21,494 bases of DNA from a virus: positions 1 to 21,494 of IMG/VR virus record IMGVR_UViG_3300042448_000111. One strand, 5' to 3'. The position numbers and the translations under genes are program-made. Position 1 is the stretch's first letter. Every line of letters starts with the position of its first letter. Of this stretch, positions 2,671 through 10,673 are shown piece after piece. The notes below the pieces were generated by a model. That model worked only from the letters and a program-made list of their open reading frames with translations. It searched no databases and was not told where the DNA came from.

Positions 2671-2874
2671 TCATCTCCTCAAAGATTCCTTGATTAATTC
2701 AGTTAATAGTTCTACTTTATTTTCTAAAGAATCAACTTTATCCTTCAGACTTGAGCCACCATTAGGGCGAAGTTCATAGAGATAATGCTTGACTAGCCAT
2801 CGCACAAGTGCAGCAAATCCAGTTATCATTGTTAGTGTGGCTACGGCTAGGCCAGCCCATTCGGTAGGTGTCAT
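2671..2874 (-). CDS. Single-span membrane protein with coiled coil, holin-like
   Basis: The 67-aa protein has one transmembrane segment (about residues 8-30, from GLAVATLTMITGF onward), then HYLYELRPNGGSSL, and a C-terminal amphipathic helix (about residues 43-65) with heptad-like spacing suited to coiled-coil assembly. Small proteins of this form, with the PNGGSS motif before the coil, are common next to lysins in actinobacteriophages and are usually called putative holins. The ATG overlaps the GTG-started tail gene's stop region by one base, and the peptidase starts at once behind it, forming a lysis cassette. With two holin-like genes here, which one makes the lethal pore cannot be told from sequence. 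Confidence 0.65.
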   Translation of the reverse strand: MTPTEWAGLAVATLTMITGFAALVRWLVKHYLYELRPNGGSSLKDKVDSLENKVELLTELIKESLRR

Positions 2875-5102
2875 TACACAGTCCTTACAGTCATAGTAAG
2901 CATTCCTCCATAGCCAGTAAACCCTCTATCTGGTGGAGTCATACGAGTGAATTGTATTTGTTCTATAGAAACCTGACGAGATTCGCCAGTTGTTAAGTCT
3001 TGCCAGGTAACAATGTCGCCATCTTCTTCAATGGTTTCTAGAGCATTGATTCGGTCTAAGGCTCGGCCTTCATAGCCGACCATAACATTGTACTTGTCTG
3101 TCTCCACGTCAAAACAATAGACGGGAAATCTAATTACTCGTTGTCGAGGTGTAGCGATTGTAGCCTTAGCCTGATAGCCTTTGAAGATAGGACCCTTGGT
3201 ATTATCTGTAGCGTCTCTGGTTAGAACAAATTTATATGCTAAAAATTCTTGTGCTCCTGCTGGCTGGCTGGTAGTTACTTCTACTGCTGGAACTGATGCG
3301 TCATAACTGACTACATCATATGCTAAACCATCTTTATCTACTGTTTGTAGGGACATAGAGCCGAATTCAAATTCACCTCGACCTATCAAACGTTTAAAGT
3401 TTTTAGGCTCTAATGTGTTGTATCTTATAAAGCCTGTTTGTAGATATCCACTTGTGGCTTTTTCACTAGCGCTTTCAATGTAAGTATAACCAGGTACATT
3501 TGTTAAAGCAGTTGCCGAGGTTACTGCAGTTGAGGCTACGTTTGTGGCTGCTTTGGTATAACTAAATGTAGTTGTAGTAGCAGCGGTTATTGTAAATAAA
3601 TTCGTAGAGTTAAATGTTGAGTCAACACCTTGAACCCATACCTCATCTCCAACGCTTAATCCGTGGGCTGTAGCAGTTGTCAAGGTAGCAACATTGCTTG
3701 TAAGTGCTTTATTAGTAATAGTCCCGCCAACAGTGTTGGATTCTGATGAGAAGACAAGTCTATCAGTATCACCAGCAAAAGCACAGGCTGTGGTTTCGTG
3801 ACCAAGTGAAGTGCCATAATAAATGTCATTTGCGTAAGCAAAAACTAAAGGCTCTAGTTGCTGACTTAAGTCAATACGAATTAACCCTGGGTATCCATCG
3901 ACCCCAGCCGTTGCCCATACATAATGGTCACGTGAACAGAAGTCATACACTGGCTGGTCAGTTTCAACAATCAAAGGACCATAGTTTATAGACCCATCTA
4001 CATCAGATACTACAGATACTCGAATACCTTTATTGGTTCCGATAATCATATAGCCTAAGTAGTAATGAATCTTATGGATAATCTCGCCCACTGGCATCTC
4101 TGCTGCTACTACCGCTTGGGTCAGGGTAGGCATAACACCTGCGGTACTGAGGGTAAATTTTAATATAGTGGATTGAATGCCATTATAACCAGCAACATAT
4201 ATTGCAGGACCTGATGCTGCTATGCTAGTAAATACGTGGCTACTAGATGGATGTGTATAAACTGCAGTAGGTAGGGCTGAGGCTGCTGAGGAGAACTCAT
4301 ATACCTTGTCATTAGCACACATAACAATACGCTCTTTGACAAACTCCATTACCGCATTAGTTACAGTAATACCATTGGCTGTAAACATAACTGTTGCAGA
4401 AGTAGAAGCATCACCAGTAAGGGCTTTCTTATTTACCTCTAGTTTGCCTGATGGGCCAGTATCATTGGTGACCCAATAGGCAGTAGTTCCATCATCACAG
4501 ATAGCAAATACTTTGTCATCGGTGCCAGAAACATAATCAACAAAGTGAGTGACAGTTCCATCTTGAGCAATCTTATCTACATCATATTCATCTCTTAGAA
4601 GAACACCTTGAGTGCTGCCATATTTAATAGAGCGTAAAGATTGATTTGCTCTTAGGTTACTAGATACTGCTCCTGTAACATAATGCTCTTCAGCAACAGC
4701 ATTAAGTAGGGTTACTTCGCCTTTAGTCCAAACGTCTACATTACGACTGTCGGCAAAGCGGTATGTGCTTTCATTGATTACTAAAGCAGGGTCAAAGAAA
4801 GTAATTCCTGTTCCGCTATGAAAGGATGACTGGCTTCTAATCCACCAACCAGTGAGGGTCTGCTCACCAGGCTCGGTTTGATTATCGAATTGTTCTTTCC
4901 TATAAGGAGCAGTCTGGCGAATATATGGGTTAGCATCATTGATGGCATAGATGAATGGCATACCACCGATAGCAACATCATAGGCTATATCAGTATTCTG
5001 CCAGATAGCATCAGTAGCAACTACACCAACATCAACAGCGATAGCATAACCAACGTCCGCGACATTAGAACCGCGACCTTCTGTAATATCACGACCAGCC
5101 AC
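2874..5102 (-). CDS. Large beta-propeller-like tail protein
   Basis: This 742-aa protein is rich in beta strands and short repeated blocks such as IYVAGYNG, MIIGTNKGI and YVWATAGVDG, suggesting a propeller between about residues 130 and 450. Residues 50-95, with IRQTAPYRKEQFDNQ, resemble tail proteins of actinobacteriophages. An extra small beta domain (about residues 463-528, with ATAHGLSVGDEVWVQG) appears inserted after the propeller; similar modules occur in many phage virion proteins. It begins with GTG at 5102, chosen because AAGGAG lies right before it and overlaps the glycosyltransferase stop. It precedes the lysis genes and is the last virion gene. A tail tube/nozzle or host-binding role is likely, but the exact part is unknown. 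Confidence 0.7.
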   Translation of the reverse strand: MAGRDITEGRGSNVADVGYAIAVDVGVVATDAIWQNTDIAYDVAIGGMPFIYAINDANPYIRQTAPYRKEQFDNQTEPGEQTLTGWWIRSQSSFHSGTGITFFDPALVINESTYRFADSRNVDVWTKGEVTLLNAVAEEHYVTGAVSSNLRANQSLRSIKYGSTQGVLLRDEYDVDKIAQDGTVTHFVDYVSGTDDKVFAICDDGTTAYWVTNDTGPSGKLEVNKKALTGDASTSATVMFTANGITVTNAVMEFVKERIVMCANDKVYEFSSAASALPTAVYTHPSSSHVFTSIAASGPAIYVAGYNGIQSTILKFTLSTAGVMPTLTQAVVAAEMPVGEIIHKIHYYLGYMIIGTNKGIRVSVVSDVDGSINYGPLIVETDQPVYDFCSRDHYVWATAGVDGYPGLIRIDLSQQLEPLVFAYANDIYYGTSLGHETTACAFAGDTDRLVFSSESNTVGGTITNKALTSNVATLTTATAHGLSVGDEVWVQGVDSTFNSTNLFTITAATTTTFSYTKAATNVASTAVTSATALTNVPGYTYIESASEKATSGYLQTGFIRYNTLEPKNFKRLIGRGEFEFGSMSLQTVDKDGLAYDVVSYDASVPAVEVTTSQPAGAQEFLAYKFVLTRDATDNTKGPIFKGYQAKATIATPRQRVIRFPVYCFDVETDKYNVMVGYEGRALDRINALETIEEDGDIVTWQDLTTGESRQVSIEQIQFTRMTPPDRGFTGYGGMLTMTVRTV

Positions 5103-5834
5103 TTATTCTCCTTGTTGCTCTTGTTCCTTAAGTTTTGTCTTTAAATGTTCGTTAGCCCAATACAATGCATAGTAGTCATAGTCAACGCTAAAGCGTTTCA
5201 TATGCTTTACCAGTGCTCCAGTATGGGCGTGTAGTGGTATCCCTGCTGCCTTCATACGGCGGAAAAAGATAATATCTTCGCCAACAAAATGCTCATCTTT
5301 GCCATCACCAGTCTCCATAAACATACCTTTACCAGGGAATGCTTCTCGCATCTTAGGAACTATAGACTTGTGCATAAGCACAAATCCAAAGCCTGCTGAG
5401 TCACACTTAATTACCTGATTCTCTGGCAATGGGTGGTGATAGCGAACTTCAAACTCACTTACATCATCAAACAAGACAGGGAACGGGCGCATAAGACTGC
5501 CCTCGTTCTCCTTGGATATGAAGTAAACACCGCTAACTACTGGACGGTTTACCTTATCGGCTGTCTGCCATAGTTTCTGGATAGCCTCAAGGCTTAGAAC
5601 TATGTCTGAATCTACCCATAGTATCCAGTCTGTCTTGAGTTTATCTGCCCAGTAATCAAAGAGTATCTGGCGTTGTCTGCCTATCTGATTACCCTGCACA
5701 CGTATGCTAGTAGTAAAGCGCATACCATTGTTAGGACCAGCAATTACTGCTGTCATTAATCCTTCAGTAAACTTACCATCGGTGGTGCCATTGTCGCACC
5801 AACCGATAGCCACTGTCTCTTGTTTTTGTATCAT
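5103..5834 (-). CDS. GT-A fold glycosyltransferase
   Basis: The 243-aa protein has the marks of a metal-dependent GT-A glycosyltransferase. These are an N-terminal nucleotide-binding region with a conserved R-Q-R-Q helix (residues 53-56), the DxD-type metal/nucleotide-sugar motif WVDSDIV (D75, D77), an acceptor-site block SAGFGFVLMHKS (about 146-157), and a later acidic pair VGEDIIFF (E186, D187) followed by VKHMKRF. It transfers a sugar from a nucleotide donor; the acceptor is unknown. A start ATG at 5834 is preceded by AGGGGA. Lying between tail genes in the late operon, it could glycosylate virion proteins, such as the Ser/Thr-rich fibre, or alter host surface sugars. It is not a DNA-modifying enzyme by any visible sign. 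Confidence 0.8.
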   Translation of the reverse strand: MIQKQETVAIGWCDNGTTDGKFTEGLMTAVIAGPNNGMRFTTSIRVQGNQIGRQRQILFDYWADKLKTDWILWVDSDIVLSLEAIQKLWQTADKVNRPVVSGVYFISKENEGSLMRPFPVLFDDVSEFEVRYHHPLPENQVIKCDSAGFGFVLMHKSIVPKMREAFPGKGMFMETGDGKDEHFVGEDIIFFRRMKAAGIPLHAHTGALVKHMKRFSVDYDYYALYWANEHLKTKLKEQEQQGE

Positions 5835-5881: not shown

Positions 5882-6583
5882 CTAAGAATAACGTTTTGAC
5901 GACCAAAAGTTGGTTTTATACGCGTTAAAATTATGTTCATAAAGTTTATCTAACATTTTTTTATTATCTTCTTCGTTTACGGATTCATAACGCGCTTCCC
6001 ACTCAATACGATTAAAAGGGATTATTTGTGCTACGGGAGTGCCTTTAGGTATGACGCCTGTAAAATTACGGTTGTTGAGGGTAAAAGGTAAATGAACGGG
6101 GTGATGGTAAGTGTCTGTATCAACAATACCCGTTAAGATAGAAATAGGATTTTCTCTGTGCGGAGGAGCAATAAATAAACAAGAATAACCTTCAGGCGTT
6201 TTTATGCCCCAATTATTTAAAAACTTGGCAATAATGTCATCTTGTATATTTACTGCGGGGTGATTAGGTGCTTGTTGTATATTATGTTCGGTTAAAATGG
6301 GTTCAGTAACACGATAACTAATAACATTATTTATATTTTCTATAATTATATCTGACCAAGTATTTAATAAATATCCCGAAGTTAAAGTATCAAAAACAGG
6401 CATACATTTTTTTATAGTTGCGGTTGTAACACGGGAACCATTTACAATTTTTGTAGATTTTATATTGTTCATATAAGGAGGCATTTCTTGATACCAACTA
6501 GGAAGATTATTTTTTGCAAGGGTAGGCGGTTCGCGGTGTTCGCCGCTATAATCTATAAAAGTTATTTCCATAATGCCTTTCAT
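5882..6583 (-). CDS. DUF6065-like protein of unknown function
   Basis: The 233-aa sequence has the recurring blocks of a conserved family I recall as DUF6065, also found in marine phages: LPSWYQEMPPY, KKCMPVFDTLTSGYL (about 58-72), NNWGIKTPEGYSCLF (123-137), PPHRENP, GIVDTDTY (152-159) and IPKGTPVAQIIPFNR (178-192). The last block looks superficially like a dUTPase motif, but the dUTPase aspartate/serine motifs are not seen. Function is unknown; phage members tend to lie near tail or fibre genes. The gene is visibly more AT-rich than its neighbours (many A/T-ending codons, T runs), suggesting separate origin. An alternative start at the fifth codon (ATG at 6571) has AAAGG ahead of it and may be the true one. 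Confidence 0.65.
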   Translation of the reverse strand: MKGIMEITFIDYSGEHREPPTLAKNNLPSWYQEMPPYMNNIKSTKIVNGSRVTTATIKKCMPVFDTLTSGYLLNTWSDIIIENINNVISYRVTEPILTEHNIQQAPNHPAVNIQDDIIAKFLNNWGIKTPEGYSCLFIAPPHRENPISILTGIVDTDTYHHPVHLPFTLNNRNFTGVIPKGTPVAQIIPFNRIEWEARYESVNEEDNKKMLDKLYEHNFNAYKTNFWSSKRYS

Positions 6584-6587
6584 TTAT

Positions 6588-6836
6588 TTACAGGTTTTCT
6601 AAAGGTGTTGGTCTTTCCTTGTAACCTGCGTTATACATTTCATCACGATTTAACGATGGTCGATTATTCATATTGGCTCTTTCGTCTATAGTACAAACTA
6701 CAGAACCATTTATAGGGTGAACCATAGGAATAGTGTATTCAATAGTTCCTAATCCGTCAGGTATTCCTAACTCTCCCATAATAGTTTCGTGCCATTCATT
6801 AAACTCATTTATATCTGAAAAAATATAATATGTCAT
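6588..6836 (-). CDS. Small hypothetical protein, tail-fibre accessory type
   Basis: The 82-aa protein begins MTYYIFSDINEFNEWHETI, a pattern I recall from small phage proteins encoded beside tail-fibre genes (beginning with a strand, then a helix with an F-x-x-WH core). No catalytic motif is visible. The ATG at 6836 overlaps the stop codon of the lectin-like gene by one base (TAATG) and is preferred to a GTG four codons upstream. Its base use is AT-rich like the DUF6065-like gene that follows 4 bases later, so the pair may have moved together. A chaperone or adaptor for the fibre is a guess from position only. Confidence 0.55.
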   Translation of the reverse strand: MTYYIFSDINEFNEWHETIMGELGIPDGLGTIEYTIPMVHPINGSVVCTIDERANMNNRPSLNRDEMYNAGYKERPTPLENL

Positions 6837-7639
6837 TAGATACCCCACTTTTCTTGTAGCCAGTCACGCATATCAGTACATTCTTGGTCAGTCAGCACTC
6901 TGTTGTAGATAAGAACATCTCCAATGTACCCATCAAAACCAAATGTTTCATACCAAGGATTAGTTAGCCAACCAAGAAAAAACTCAGAGTTACTACTAAC
7001 ATTTACTGTAGGAGTTGTTTTTGTCTTTTTTGATTCATCTTGAAAAAACCCTTTTAAGGATGTGCCTGAACCTGTAGTTACTATAGTAAACCAAGTGTTG
7101 TTGTAGGCGCTGTCACTAAAAACATAGTTATCGTCTCTGCCTCCAGCATAACCACCTGATATTTTTTCATCATCCTCAAAAATGTTACTCCACCCTGCTC
7201 CTACAGCGTTTGAAGTACCCCAAGAAACCATTGTTTGGTCTGTATTTGTATCCGTAGATTTCCCCGCAATACATACTGTAAATGCTCCAGTACCAGTAGT
7301 CGGTTGCGTAGTGCTTTTTAGGTTATCAAGGTTAGCGTCTTTGAACCTAACCGCCGACCTTCCGTTTTGAACAGATGACTCCAAATCAGGTTGTCTTGCT
7401 CCTGTAGCCTGACTAACATTTGCTCCACCACTAGCAGGTGATTTGATATTCCATTCAGAGATATTTCCACTAGATACAGTCATAGTTGAAGAATCAGACC
7501 CGTCAAACCAATGCGTAAGACCTGAAGTTACGGCTGGGGTGTTGACAAAAGGTGCAAAAGCATTATTCCCAGCCAGCATACTCCCGTAATTAGTTCTGCC
7601 TTTTATACTACTGGCTTTTAATCTATATACAGGTGCCAT
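6836..7639 (-). CDS. LamG/concanavalin A-like lectin-fold virion protein
   Basis: The 267-aa protein ends with the block FDGYIGDVLIYNRVLT followed by a helix and DWLQEKWGI, the hallmark closing section of LamG/laminin-G-like (concanavalin A-fold) domains in phage and bacterial proteins. Near residues 40-50 GLTHWFDGSDSST begins the beta-sandwich. Such domains bind sugars, so a part in recognising the host surface as a tail spike or fibre tip is likely. The first ~38 residues, rich in basic and small residues, may attach it to the particle. The ATG at 7639 overlaps the stop of the previous gene (TGATG) and is preferred to the TTG one codon upstream. Confidence 0.75.
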   Translation of the reverse strand: MAPVYRLKASSIKGRTNYGSMLAGNNAFAPFVNTPAVTSGLTHWFDGSDSSTMTVSSGNISEWNIKSPASGGANVSQATGARQPDLESSVQNGRSAVRFKDANLDNLKSTTQPTTGTGAFTVCIAGKSTDTNTDQTMVSWGTSNAVGAGWSNIFEDDEKISGGYAGGRDDNYVFSDSAYNNTWFTIVTTGSGTSLKGFFQDESKKTKTTPTVNVSSNSEFFLGWLTNPWYETFGFDGYIGDVLIYNRVLTDQECTDMRDWLQEKWGI

Positions 7640-7953
7640 CAAGAAATCTCCACTCCAGAGATATGGAAACTTACACCAGTAGTAGATGCAAGTCCAGCAA
7701 TTGTAGTAGCAGGGCTAGTTGGTGGAATAACCTGCTTCATATCAATTACTGTGGTGTCATAGGCACCAACAGATACTGATGATGCAGCAGTTACTCCAGC
7801 AATGGTTAATGTAAAGTTAGCAGTACTGCCAGTAGTATTAGTCACCAACATATTGGTGATTACTGTAGTAGTTGTAGTATTAGGTTGTGTGTATAGGGTT
7901 GCGCTTGCTGTTGCTGCTGCTGTTCTAGCCAGCGTTTTAGATGTTACAGCCAT
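7639..7953 (-). CDS. Small beta-rich virion protein
   Basis: This 104-aa protein is nearly free of charged residues and rich in Thr, Val, Ala and Ser, with alternating strands: LYTQPNTTTTTVITNMLV, then TANFTLTIAGV, then TTVIDMKQVI and VSFHISGVEI. The pattern matches a common small phage virion protein with a single beta-sandwich domain encoded beside fibre or tail genes. Its role is probably structural (fibre, decoration or baseplate part); no enzymatic motif is present. It is read in coupling with the lectin-like gene, which starts on its stop codon. AAAGGA lies about 13 bases before the ATG. Confidence 0.6.
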   Translation of the reverse strand: MAVTSKTLARTAAATASATLYTQPNTTTTTVITNMLVTNTTGSTANFTLTIAGVTAASSVSVGAYDTTVIDMKQVIPPTSPATTIAGLASTTGVSFHISGVEIS

Positions 7954-7971: not shown

Positions 7972-9747
7972 TTAAAGTGCGCCCATTATGACATATACTG
8001 GGTCGGTTCCTGCATCAATAGTAGCACTGCCTCCGAGGGAGACAGGAGTACCATTGAGTGTAATGCTTGAATTAGTTAAAGATGCATTACCAATATTAGA
8101 TAAAGTGTTATTTGCTCCGCTAATTGTTTTGTTTGTAAAAGTTTGAGTTCCACTAGTAGTTGCTACAGTTGAGTCAATAGATACTGCAGGAATTGGACCA
8201 GTGCTACTTGCTATTGTAATTCCTGTACCAGCAGATACTGCTGTAATATCTCCTTGGTCATTAGCAATCCAGGCAAGACCTGTTGTGGTTGCAGAGTCAA
8301 CAGCCAAGATATATCCATTGGTTGAGGCAACAGTTAAGACAGATGGAGTAGATGCTCCGCTTGCTGAGATAAGAGAACCTTTAGCGGTAAGAATTGCTTT
8401 GTCAATAAAGGCTGATGTGTCAGGGGCTACTAAGTCCCAAGAAGCGCCGTTGTAAACCTTCATAGCATCAATGACATCATTAAAGTAAAGTGCACCAGTT
8501 AGTAGTGCGCCACCATCATTATCTAATGTCGGGTCAGATGACTTGTTGCCAAGGTATCTATCATCAAACTGGTCATAACTAGCAGCAGCAGAAGTTGCTG
8601 ATGTGGCTGCTGCGGTAGCAGATGCTGCTGCAGATGTAGCGCTAGTTGCTGCAGCCGTTGCTGATGCCGCTGCTGCTGTTGCCGAAGTAGCAGCAGCACT
8701 GGCTGATGTAGCCGATGATGTAGCACTTGTCTCAGCAGATGTGGCTGAAGTAGTAGCAGCAGTTGCCGATGCTGCAGCGCTAGTAGCAGAAGTAGCCGCT
8801 GCCGTAGCAGAAACGGCTGCGCTTGTAGCAGATGTAGCAGCAGCGGTAGCCGAAGCAGCAGCGCTTGTGGCACTTGTGGCTGCTGCTGAGGCACTCGTTG
8901 CCGAGGCTGTGGCGCTATTAGAGGCACTTGTAGCACTGGTAGCAGCACTGGTAGCACTCGTAGCAGCCGAGGCTGCGGAGGTTGCTGCAGCAGTTGCTGA
9001 GCCTAGAATGCTATCTACATAATCCTTCGGGGTAGCAGAGGAAGCAGACATACCTGCGCTAGATAGACCAGTGATTACAGGGCTACCAGAGATGATAGGG
9101 CTGGTCAGGGTCTTATTGGTCAAGGTCTGAGAAGCCGTAGCAATGACTACTGTACCTGTCGTATTAGGTAGGGTGATTTCATTATCCTGTGTAGGCTCGA
9201 CTACAGTCAGGGTAGTCTCGTGGGCATCAGCCGTAGCACCTTCAAATACTATGCTGGTTTCAAGACCAGATGTTCCAGTAATTGTAGGGCTAGAAATTAT
9301 TGGGGTAGTAAGAGTCTTGTTAGTAAGGGTCTGTGCCTTGGCTGTACCTACTACATCACCTTCGCCAGATGCAATGCCGTGCATTGACTGGGCATTACCT
9401 GCGCCATCATTATAAGAGGCAGCAGCCTGGGTATGTAGGTTGGCATCACGGTAATCTCTACCGATAGCCATATGTCTTACTACTGCGCCTGCTGAGTGTG
9501 ACTGTGCAGATGAACCATCAATGGCTCGGGTAATTGTAAATGTATTGGTAGATACCGCCGTAGCATCTACGATTTCTTCAAGAGCAGTATCTACATCTAT
9601 AACTAAAGTAAAGGTTCTACCTGCAGGAATGCTCTGACCACCCATTAAGGCTGAGCCGTTAACTACTGTCATAGTAGCAGCGCCTGCGGTTATAGCACTG
9701 GTCAGTGTTGACTGTTGGCTACGGGACGAGTATTGACGTGTTGGCAT
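7972..9747 (-). CDS. Tail fibre protein with a long Ala/Ser/Thr repeat stalk
   Basis: The 591-aa protein has an N-terminal region (1-130) that may attach to the tail. Modules with QTLTNKTLT near residues 139 and 207, and TQTFTNKTIS further on, are repeats typical of phage tail fibres. A 140-residue stalk (250-389) is made almost only of Ala, Ser and Thr in about seven-residue periods (ATSATSA/ASATAAA), and a C-terminal head starts at YDQFDDRYLG. Repeats of this kind form long trimeric rods in fibres. It probably makes first contact with the host cell. The start ATG has a weak GGAA ahead and lies 8 bases after the connector gene's stop. The Ser/Thr stalk is a possible substrate for the glycosyltransferase encoded downstream, which is inference. 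Confidence 0.8.
   Translation of the reverse strand: MPTRQYSSRSQQSTLTSAITAGAATMTVVNGSALMGGQSIPAGRTFTLVIDVDTALEEIVDATAVSTNTFTITRAIDGSSAQSHSAGAVVRHMAIGRDYRDANLHTQAAASYNDGAGNAQSMHGIASGEGDVVGTAKAQTLTNKTLTTPIISSPTITGTSGLETSIVFEGATADAHETTLTVVEPTQDNEITLPNTTGTVVIATASQTLTNKTLTSPIISGSPVITGLSSAGMSASSATPKDYVDSILGSATAAATSAASAATSATSAATSATSASNSATASATSASAAATSATSAAASATAAATSATSAAVSATAAATSATSAAASATAATTSATSAETSATSSATSASAAATSATAAAASATAAATSATSAAASATAAATSATSAAASYDQFDDRYLGNKSSDPTLDNDGGALLTGALYFNDVIDAMKVYNGASWDLVAPDTSAFIDKAILTAKGSLISASGASTPSVLTVASTNGYILAVDSATTTGLAWIANDQGDITAVSAGTGITIASSTGPIPAVSIDSTVATTSGTQTFTNKTISGANNTLSNIGNASLTNSSITLNGTPVSLGGSATIDAGTDPVYVIMGAL
8581..9000 (-). repeat. Low-complexity GCT/GCA/ACT repeat coding the fibre stalk
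   Basis: About 420 bases of imperfect tandem repeats with a period near 21 bases encode the Ala/Ser/Thr stalk. Copies differ mostly at third codon positions, so the protein repeat is kept while the DNA repeat is blurred. The other frames and the opposite strand stay open here because of the repeat, giving false reading frames rich in Leu, Gln, Ala or Val. Confidence 0.85.
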
Positions 9748-9755
9748 TTATGTTC

Positions 9756-10673
9756 CTATCGGTTAAAACGAATGCGGGGAGGGTACTGACCTTGGAAAGA
9801 AGAAATTTCTTCTCTTAGTCTCTGCTGATAGAGAGCAAAGAGTTGACGAGTAGCATTATTAGATGAACCGAACGGACGCTTGGCGTCAATCTCATCAGCC
9901 TGTGGGCTAATCTGAGACGCACGTGCTGGGTCAAGATAAGCAAGTAGTCTATACGCTGCACCTAAAATTATTACGTCTCTTGCTGATTCGGGATATCCTG
10001 TCTGAGTTGTAAAAGTCTGGCTATTAGATGTAAATGCTGTAGGTTGGGTAACGTACATAATTTTTACTGTACGACCAGAGGTAATATAATCATAAATGCT
10101 AATTGTTTGACTGCCCTCACCCCAGTAAGTTGCCTCTGCTAAGGGGTCAAAGTCATAACGATTGACTCTAATCCATTCCAAAGATGGCCCAATGTCTTGC
10201 CACATAACAGTAAGGATAGATTCAATATTAAGGTTACTTAAGTCATAAGTATTTTGGGCTGCGTTAAAGGTAAAAGTAGTTTGCTTTACAACCATCAATT
10301 GAGTTCCGACTGCTCGGATAGTATCGTTGATAGCCTTCTTAATTACATATCTAGGAAATATAGGAGAGATTGTTACCTTGGTATCTACGGCAGCAGTTGA
10401 GGCAGTAGTACCTAGATAGCCACGCCCATAGGGCGCAACAGTTGCTGTATTAGCAATACGGTCAAATGAGTCAACCCACATCAACTCTTCGCCTACCTCT
10501 AGGACACCTTTACCTACTGAATCAGTGGAGCCGAGGCTCAAGATTGTTGGCGAAGAACTAGGGGAAGTTAATGTTGTGACTGCAGCAGTAAGGTATGTGC
10601 TTCTGTCTTGTTGATAGGTATAGCCTGAAAGATTGATAAGAACTTCATCAATCATTTCTGCAAGTGTTGTCAT
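9756..10673 (-). CDS. Head-tail connector / tail completion protein
   Basis: The 305-aa protein resembles the tail-tube/connector proteins that follow the capsid gene in actinobacteriophages with short tails. Supporting blocks are FIDEVLxNLxGY-like MIDEVLINLSGY at residues 7-18, GVLEVGEELMWVDS (56-69), a GRGYLGTTAS strand-turn (84-93), VIKKAINDTI (110-119) and a C-terminal helix YPESARDVIILGAAYRLLA (227-245) followed by LDPARA. Such proteins sit between the portal and the tail and help close the channel. The ATG overlaps the preceding stop by 4 bases (ATGA). I know the family by pattern only; a T7 gp11-like gatekeeper or adaptor is the closest functional idea. Confidence 0.7.
   Translation of the reverse strand: MTTLAEMIDEVLINLSGYTYQQDRSTYLTAAVTTLTSPSSSPTILSLGSTDSVGKGVLEVGEELMWVDSFDRIANTATVAPYGRGYLGTTASTAAVDTKVTISPIFPRYVIKKAINDTIRAVGTQLMVVKQTTFTFNAAQNTYDLSNLNIESILTVMWQDIGPSLEWIRVNRYDFDPLAEATYWGEGSQTISIYDYITSGRTVKIMYVTQPTAFTSNSQTFTTQTGYPESARDVIILGAAYRLLAYLDPARASQISPQADEIDAKRPFGSSNNATRQLFALYQQRLREEISSFQGQYPPRIRFNR

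Follow-up and report, generated by a model that had tools for sequence, protein, structure and literature searches.

Gene content of the locus

The window (the whole stretch of DNA that was analysed, 21,494 nucleotides) is a 21.5-kb linear virus record with tailed-phage genes of the head, tail, and early classes, and every assigned gene in it lies on the minus strand. The region of interest is a variable interval, referred to here as the slot, which is bounded by a tail fibre gene and a glycosyltransferase-like gene and contains two adjacent AT-rich genes, one related to the DUF6065 family and the other encoding a protein of 82 aa. The relevant features are listed below in order of coordinates.

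2874..5102, minus strand: 742-aa gene, the downstream synteny anchor (phrog_11667)
5103..5834, minus strand: glycosyltransferase-like gene, downstream edge of the slot (phrog_34859, E 1.6e-102; Pfam GT2 under its cut-off)
5882..6571, minus strand: DUF6065-like gene (phrog_7084); translation from the ATG at 6571 gives 229 aa, with a predicted fold of the dUTPase superfamily plus a helical extension at the C-terminus
6588..6836, minus strand: orphan gene, 82 aa; its position is held by a short gene in many relatives
6836..7639, minus strand: adhesin-like protein with a C-terminal LamG/ConA-like domain (PF13385, 30.4 bits, above cut-off)
7639..7953, minus strand: 104-aa gene, recurrent in the slots of many relatives
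7972..9747, minus strand: tail fibre gene, upstream edge of the slot (phrog_38058, E 7e-159)
9756..10673, minus strand: SU10-type adaptor gene, the upstream synteny anchor (PF24175, 37.5 bits; phrog_7578)

Both central ORFs were found where the earlier note had placed them, and the tight packing that it described is evident from the letters themselves: the ATG of the 82-aa gene overlaps the stop codon of the LamG gene (TAATG), and the DUF6065-like gene begins 16 bases further downstream. The start at 6571 was picked on the AAAGG that stands shortly 5′ of it, and an alternative ATG at 6583 would give a protein of 233 aa. A sister contig from another sample (L001) represents the same phage (99.9% over 10.4 kb) and contains an exact copy of both genes. 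The N-terminal start region of the LamG adhesin is common to other adhesin-like genes of the slot (L239, L271, and L315). Elsewhere in the window, two overlapping minus-strand ORFs (816-1418 and 1411-1599) match the back and front parts of one PD-(D/E)XK nuclease profile and appear to represent a split gene or a frameshift; the 62-aa ORF of this pair is also present in the sister contig.

For the 82-aa gene, the searched collections yielded no credible relative beyond this phage (one of these searches covering close relatives only), and the model of its protein is of low confidence (pLDDT 57). A weak match in an Achromobacter phage (E 0.04) was attributed to chance, as no gene is annotated there and stop codons lie inside the aligned stretch. 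In relatives, the short gene occupying the orphan's position is often tail-fibre-assembly-like by eye (phrog_7759), and DUF6065 genes of other phages have different upstream genes. The idea of a two-gene cassette was therefore ruled out: one member is an orphan, and the other has different partners elsewhere.

Base composition and codon use

The GC content of the DUF6065-like and 82-aa genes is 0.336 and 0.337, respectively, compared to 0.422 for the window; the two-gene stretch as a whole has a GC content of 0.335, and among all 955-bp stretches of the window the GC minimum begins at position 5883. The AT-richness noticed previously is thus real, but the different codon use that had been claimed along with it is not, because synonymous choice is ordinary relative to the other genes of the window (z -0.28 for the DUF6065-like gene and +1.16 for the 82-aa gene). 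Stronger deviations are found in other genes, such as the glycosyltransferase (z -2.12) and ORF 816-1418 (z -4.21), and a GC3 of 0.24 falls inside the range of 0.21-0.45 observed for the 28 window genes tested. The low GC of the two genes comes mainly from codon positions 1 and 2, that is, from their amino-acid make-up.

The same bias extends to the family. Among the matches listed, DUF6065 genes were lower in GC than the neighbouring ORFs in 73 of 75 distinct virus-contig copies, with a median difference of -8.6 points (restricted to loci in which at least four further ORFs of 90 aa were available, with no more than two copies taken from each, and with the sister contig L001 included). In these 75 copies the deficit is largest at codon position 2 (-12.2), followed by position 1 (-7.9) and position 3 (-4.1), and FYMINK residues make up 37% of the DUF6065 proteins compared to 25% of their neighbours. 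GC3 lies approximately 4 points under that of the neighbours and is lower in 59 of the 75 copies, which amino acids alone do not explain. In addition, AT-richness is seen in 38 of 42 loci for the small gene directly upstream of DUF6065, regardless of the family to which that gene belongs. AT-richness is a property of the DUF6065 protein and its place, i.e., a family trait. Since low GC is common to the family, composition is uninformative about recent gain, and its use as a sign of a foreign, recently arrived segment does not hold.

Exchange of the slot between related phages

Relatives of the window phage were fetched via the two anchor genes that flank the slot. Searches for homologues yielded the best 80 of 117, of 121, of 573, and of 158 confirmed places, the last two sets being those of the anchors (573 places for the 742-aa gene and 158 for the adaptor, best 80 of each). 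Among the matches listed, a DUF6065 gene lies between both anchors in 12 of 63 loci, corresponding to 9 of 48 distinct slots, including that of the window phage (L227). These counts demand both anchors on the contig, and loci with a single anchor were viewed only if that anchor was at least 90% identical; DUF6065 genes are also present in L244, L286, L312, and L384, all of which are outside the 63 two-anchor loci.

The nearest relatives (adaptor at least 98% identical) whose slot is visible up to the glycosyltransferase comprise six distinct cases: L229, L234, L239, L310, L311, and L312. The first five have no DUF6065 gene in the slot, and the 82-aa gene occurs in none of the six. The sixth carries a DUF6065 gene (L312:7416-8100) that shares only 40% identity with the window's, with flanks that are 97-99% identical (adaptor 99%, glycosyltransferase 97%), which has the appearance of an allele-like swap. 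That such a close relative has a DUF6065 gene at all suggests that the slot favours DUF6065 more than pure chance cargo would. No DUF6065 gene was detected in 14 whole records of relatives, which may be fragments, while the positive set was recovered completely (10 of 10). In the eight other DUF6065-bearing slots, identity to the window's proteins is 46-85% for the glycosyltransferase and 66-76% for the 742-aa protein, compared to only 39-44% for DUF6065. In the slots inspected, the genes comprise adhesin-like ones that differ from the window's, short assembly-like ones, and unrelated ORFs. Because near-identical phages have different slot contents, these contents must have been exchanged by recombination.

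Phylogenetic analysis was consistent with such exchange. The window's DUF6065 pairs with that of L002 (54% identity, support 100/99), a contig in which a PF04860 portal gene lies beside DUF6065 together with a group 1 glycosyltransferase and flanks unlike those of the window. The phage-lineage label changes 14 times on the DUF6065 tree (at least 9 of these changes on starred branches), compared to 20.2 in shuffles, so that the phage lineages appear clustered yet far from a single clade. This tree includes 13 of the 81 bacterial-genome rows, its bootstrap is not fully settled, and its lineage labels were assigned by anchor fetching or because the 742-aa gene is present.

Comparison of synteny thus agrees with the proposal that the gene is an accessory one within the tail module, as it occupies a minority of the distinct slots, is missing together with the 82-aa gene from five of the six nearest relatives, and is scrambled across lineages in its own tree. 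The suggestion that the gain was recent fared less evenly: near-identical phages that lack DUF6065 or carry another version argue for it, whereas composition says nothing on the matter. From these sequences, DUF6065 is a repeatedly exchanged accessory gene, and the region is best described as an exchangeable cargo slot of the receptor-binding module.

Family membership

The window protein scores 17.6 bits against PF19541 (DUF6065), under the cut-off of 26.6, and matches phrog_7084 with an E-value of 9.7e-45 (residues 6-229 on positions 6-239 of the 240-position profile). It is thus homologous to DUF6065/phrog_7084 along its full length, although it falls under the PF19541 cut-off itself. All 56 aligned phage members match phrog_7084, and PF19541 matches 25 of the 56 at E-values up to 1 (best 3.3e-6). 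A profile built from the 56 phage proteins recovers all 81 bacterial-genome rows (E 1e-43 to 1e-65), and an S. medicae relative annotated as DUF6065 reaches 35.6 bits, above the PF19541 cut-off. The name DUF6065 may therefore be said to fit the window protein loosely. In the literature search, no publication was found that names DUF6065, PF19541, or phrog_7084, and neither a function nor a fold was found in print; PMC12487901 and PMC10579305, in the parts available, contain nothing on the family, and searches for dUTPase-like phage proteins and for enzyme cargo beside fibres gave nothing on it either. A search of NCBIfam with DUF6065 yielded two matches at chance level, and a profile search of the sequences of solved structures yielded none.

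Predicted fold and conserved motifs

A model predicted from the alignment of the 56 phage proteins, with that of the window placed first, is of high quality (mean pLDDT 94, pTM 0.87), and the structure search that the earlier note had proposed for this family matched it to dUTPases. Foldseek returned 56 matches in the PDB at E ≤ 0.001 (best 6.8e-5); among the best 50 of these 56, 49 carry the name dUTPase, dCTP deaminase, or both, whereas the remaining row (6h4c_G) has a title on a phage-island repressor in which the chain is not named. TM-scores normalised to the query are 0.28-0.40 (best 50 of 56), with large rmsd over the full alignments, and the low values reflect the fact that the DUF6065 protein is much longer than a dUTPase. 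In VIA-align, where Z reaches 10.3, the top 50 entries are all dUTPases or complexes of dUTPases, with low-rmsd alignments of 2.6 Å over 112-114 residues (Z 9.4-9.8; for 3hza, Z 9.8 over 114 residues). In BFVD, the ten best rows are phage proteins without a function, and the named rows further down are mostly dUTPases, plus lentiviral Pol, adenovirus E4/ORFD, and one herpesvirus pp65.

Similarity at the sequence level appears weak but non-random. The dUTPase profile PF00692 touches 3 of the 56 family members (best E 0.014) and, in the L056 record, matches within the DUF6065 gene at 4e-4, under its cut-off of 22 bits; the window record has no match to it at E 0.001. Alignment of the family profile to 33 bacterial dUTPases gave a score of 26.4, whereas 100 column shuffles reached at most 20.1 and a reversed control 13.9. 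The hhalign probabilities are low (0.8-8.8%, the highest belonging to the alignment that beat 100 of 100 shuffles), and the program pairs GIVDTDTY with GxIDxDY and GTPVAQ with GxRIAQ.

With the trimeric dUTPase (PF00692)/dCTP deaminase superfamily, DUF6065 shares its predicted fold, a motif III of the form GxxDxD(x)Y, and, within motif IV (GxxxAQ), the Gly and the Gln. Motif III is kept as GIVDTDxY, including the position of the catalytic Asp, with one additional residue ahead of the Tyr. This Asp (D151) is present in all 105 phage rows and in 99% of the 81 bacterial-genome rows. A distant cyanophage copy (L166:6995-7789, translated by eye) has GIVHSD instead, implying that the motif III Asp is not universal in DUF6065. 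In the motif IV region, GTPxAQ corresponds to GxRIAQ of dUTPases, with Gly and Gln retained and the Arg absent. The motif I Asp (AGxDL) is missing, the phage consensus reading TAGYII in place of AGMDL (lined up by eye), and PxHR or PLNR stands where motif II has RSG or RSS. The glycine-rich motif V (RGxGGFGSTG) is also missing; compared to a dUTPase, the DUF6065 protein is approximately 80-90 residues longer, has inserts, and ends, where the motif V arm would be, in a C-terminal extension of two helices, in which Y218, K219, and K226 are conserved in the phage rows.

Conservation is concentrated accordingly. The 56 phage proteins share 24 invariant columns, and the motif III and IV stretches hold many of the residues conserved across phage and bacterial members: D151, T152, D153, G177, T178, P179, Q182, and R188 are each present in at least 90% of the 105 phage and 81 bacterial-genome rows (duplicates kept; hits of at least 100 bits that span at least 170 positions, without L001, L081, and L162). 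This conservation speaks for a putative ligand pocket. Identity as a canonical dUTPase was rejected on the motifs and on the PF00692 cut-off. The model suggests that DUF6065 has the predicted fold of a dUTPase subunit, and the family is best read as a putative repurposed branch of the dUTPase superfamily, not as a dUTPase. That the gene is accessory and that its product has a dUTPase-like fold can, taken together, be held with considerable confidence.

Gene neighbourhoods in other viruses and in bacteria

The earlier statement that DUF6065 travels with tail genes is borne out by wider comparison. Among the matches listed, clusters of the tail-fibre module lie at most five genes upstream of DUF6065 in 45 of 48 testable virus loci; these are distinct loci with enough upstream sequence (L001 included), and the clusters are single-linkage ones, so that "tail-fibre module" is to be understood broadly. 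Tandem, diverged DUF6065 copies occur in 15 of 60 distinct virus loci (L012, L016, L030, L073, L074, L077, L080, and others), which hints at hetero-oligomers or divided roles. Several candidate modifying enzymes are encoded near DUF6065 or in the slot. Those above Pfam cut-offs are 2OG-FeII_Oxy_3 (L019), Sulfotransfer_3 twice (L046 and L260), and a GlcNAc glycosyltransferase; glycosyltransferases lie beside DUF6065 in L073 and L002 (group 1 in the latter), and a below-cut-off methyltransferase in L049. A scan of 10 neighbour proteins, hand-picked from a list of 37, left four without a match and identified one as a pyrimidine-dimer glycosylase. The sulfotransferase of L260 (L260:6535-7275, PF13469) lies in the slot between adhesin-side genes and the glycosyltransferase, and DUF6065 is absent there.

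The matching phage records are mostly from haloarchaeal viruses (49 of 51). In the Hafunaviridae (HF1/HF2 group), DUF6065 is again close to an exchangeable adhesin region, as HF-group haloviruses are described, in the parts of the sources available, as having a hypervariable tail-fibre adhesin region (PMC8651126; PMC7230728). The arrangement differs from that of the window phage in that DUF6065 lies on the strand opposite to the tail genes in both HF2 and HSTV-2; in HF2 it has the tail-fibre region on one side and, beyond one small ORF, ribonucleotide reductase on the other, and in HSTV-2 it directly follows thymidylate synthase (ThyX). The word dUTPase was not found in the passages of PMC8651126 and PMC7230728. 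In the cyanophage, DUF6065 lies among auxiliary metabolic genes.

The bacterial relatives are approximately 30% identical and, by record title, mostly from Rhizobiales. Rhizobial homologues are chromosomal or on megaplasmids and have the same conserved polar residues as phage members, and tail genes are absent from the two annotated rhizobial stretches inspected. A canonical dUTPase is also encoded in 13 of 14 bacterial genomes with DUF6065. Among the matches listed for 64 loci examined over 14 kb (L083-L161, e.g., L163:6923-11089), which show several gene orders, an ECF sigma factor is present within approximately 7 kb in 52, an anti-sigma factor in 51, and an S8 peptidase (subtilase) in 53. 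This linkage suggests that bacterial DUF6065 forms one regulatory system with the ECF sigma factor, the anti-sigma factor, and the S8 peptidase. A publication on RpoE1 and RpoE4 of S. meliloti, in the part available, deals with sigma factors other than the DUF6065-linked one.

Possible functions of DUF6065

The reading that we favour, and regard as reasonably probable as a whole, combines an exchangeable slot with a repurposed enzyme or binding protein of dUTPase fold. The set of genes behind the tail fibre gene differs between related phages and includes adhesin-like genes, short ones that resemble assembly genes, and in some cases a gene for an enzyme; in the window phage the slot contains the LamG adhesin, the 82-aa orphan, and DUF6065. 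The DUF6065 protein would be made late in infection as a probably trimeric enzyme or binding protein with a nucleotide or phosphate ligand, and would probably act with neighbouring modifying enzymes on the adhesin, the host surface, or nucleotide-derived substrates, leaving the dUTP pool uncleaned. A rebuilt pocket with a role other than dUTP hygiene may be assumed because phages with and without DUF6065 alike have no dUTPase and 13 of the 14 bacteria have a normal one. An enzymatic or ligand-binding function is slightly preferred over a part of the virion, since rhizobia conserve the same polar residues outside tail modules. The particular role proposed here is tentative and of low probability. 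The slot position would suit a structural or assembly protein as well, and with the ribonucleotide reductase and thymidylate synthase neighbours of haloviruses, nucleotide metabolism fits better than work on adhesins.

Alternatively, DUF6065 may belong to the adhesin complex as a structural or assembly protein, for example a trimeric cap, tip, or chaperone rich in beta structure, in which the dUTPase fold would provide the three-fold shape. dUTPases are trimers, and the frequent company of tail-fibre and adhesin genes, as well as the proximity to the hypervariable host-range region in haloviruses (in the parts available of PMC8651126 and PMC7230728), are in line with such a role. It is nevertheless rather unlikely considering the rhizobial homologues, which lie beside ECF sigma, anti-sigma, and subtilase genes, and the cyanophage copy in its metabolic surroundings.

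Less probable still is a working dUTPase or dCTP-deaminase-like enzyme that would keep uracil out of phage DNA or supply dUMP. The predicted fold, the retention of motifs III and IV, and the position beside thymidylate synthase or near ribonucleotide reductase would agree with this activity, as would the finding that none of 16 DUF6065 phage records has a separate PF00692 gene, the single weak match lying inside the DUF6065 gene itself. However, the losses in motifs I, II, and V, the canonical dUTPases of the bacterial genomes, and the late position in the tail module all argue against it. No dUTPase was found in 20 related phage records either (14 without and 6 with DUF6065), so that related phages lacking DUF6065 likewise lack a dUTPase and nothing is visibly compensated; DUF6065 as a stand-in for a separate dUTPase was rejected on these 16 and 20 records, many of which are perhaps fragments. 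Finally, the notion that the pair is a mobile two-gene cassette recently captured from an AT-rich donor, to which the GC minimum of the window and the absence of both genes from most of the nearest relatives might point (in the sixth, the 82-aa gene is missing and DUF6065 is a different one), is very improbable, as it appears largely refuted by the family-wide AT-richness, which extends to unrelated small genes upstream, and as synonymous codon use is normal and DUF6065 is elsewhere unaccompanied by the 82-aa gene.

Comparison with known systems and implications

The repurposed dUTPase fold that we favour has parallels among viruses of eukaryotes. The dUTPase-related proteins (DURPs) of herpesviruses lack dUTPase activity, and bovine immunodeficiency virus reportedly has a dUTPase-related gene whose product is likewise without such activity. 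In these cases too, a viral dUTPase fold has lost the canonical motifs and presumably taken on a new job, but they are proteins of eukaryotic viruses in other gene contexts, whereas DUF6065 is common to bacteria and archaeal viruses. What is new here is the predicted link of DUF6065 to the dUTPase fold. A further-reaching version, according to which DUF6065 would form a so far unrecognised dUTPase-superfamily branch whose active site has been rebuilt for a new substrate, serving in phages of bacteria and archaea as adhesin-slot cargo that modifies fibres or the host surface, next to sulfotransferases, 2OG oxygenases, and glycosyltransferases, and put to use in ECF clusters in rhizobia, is speculative and on present grounds doubtful.

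With this prediction, a family of bacterial phages, haloarchaeal viruses, and rhizobia to which no function had been assigned gains a fold and a set of testable active-site residues. The analysis also illustrates that compositional oddity can mislead, as the family is AT-rich nearly everywhere owing to its amino acids. If the adhesin-cargo reading is true, it would mean that enzymes are swapped by phages along with their receptor-binding proteins.
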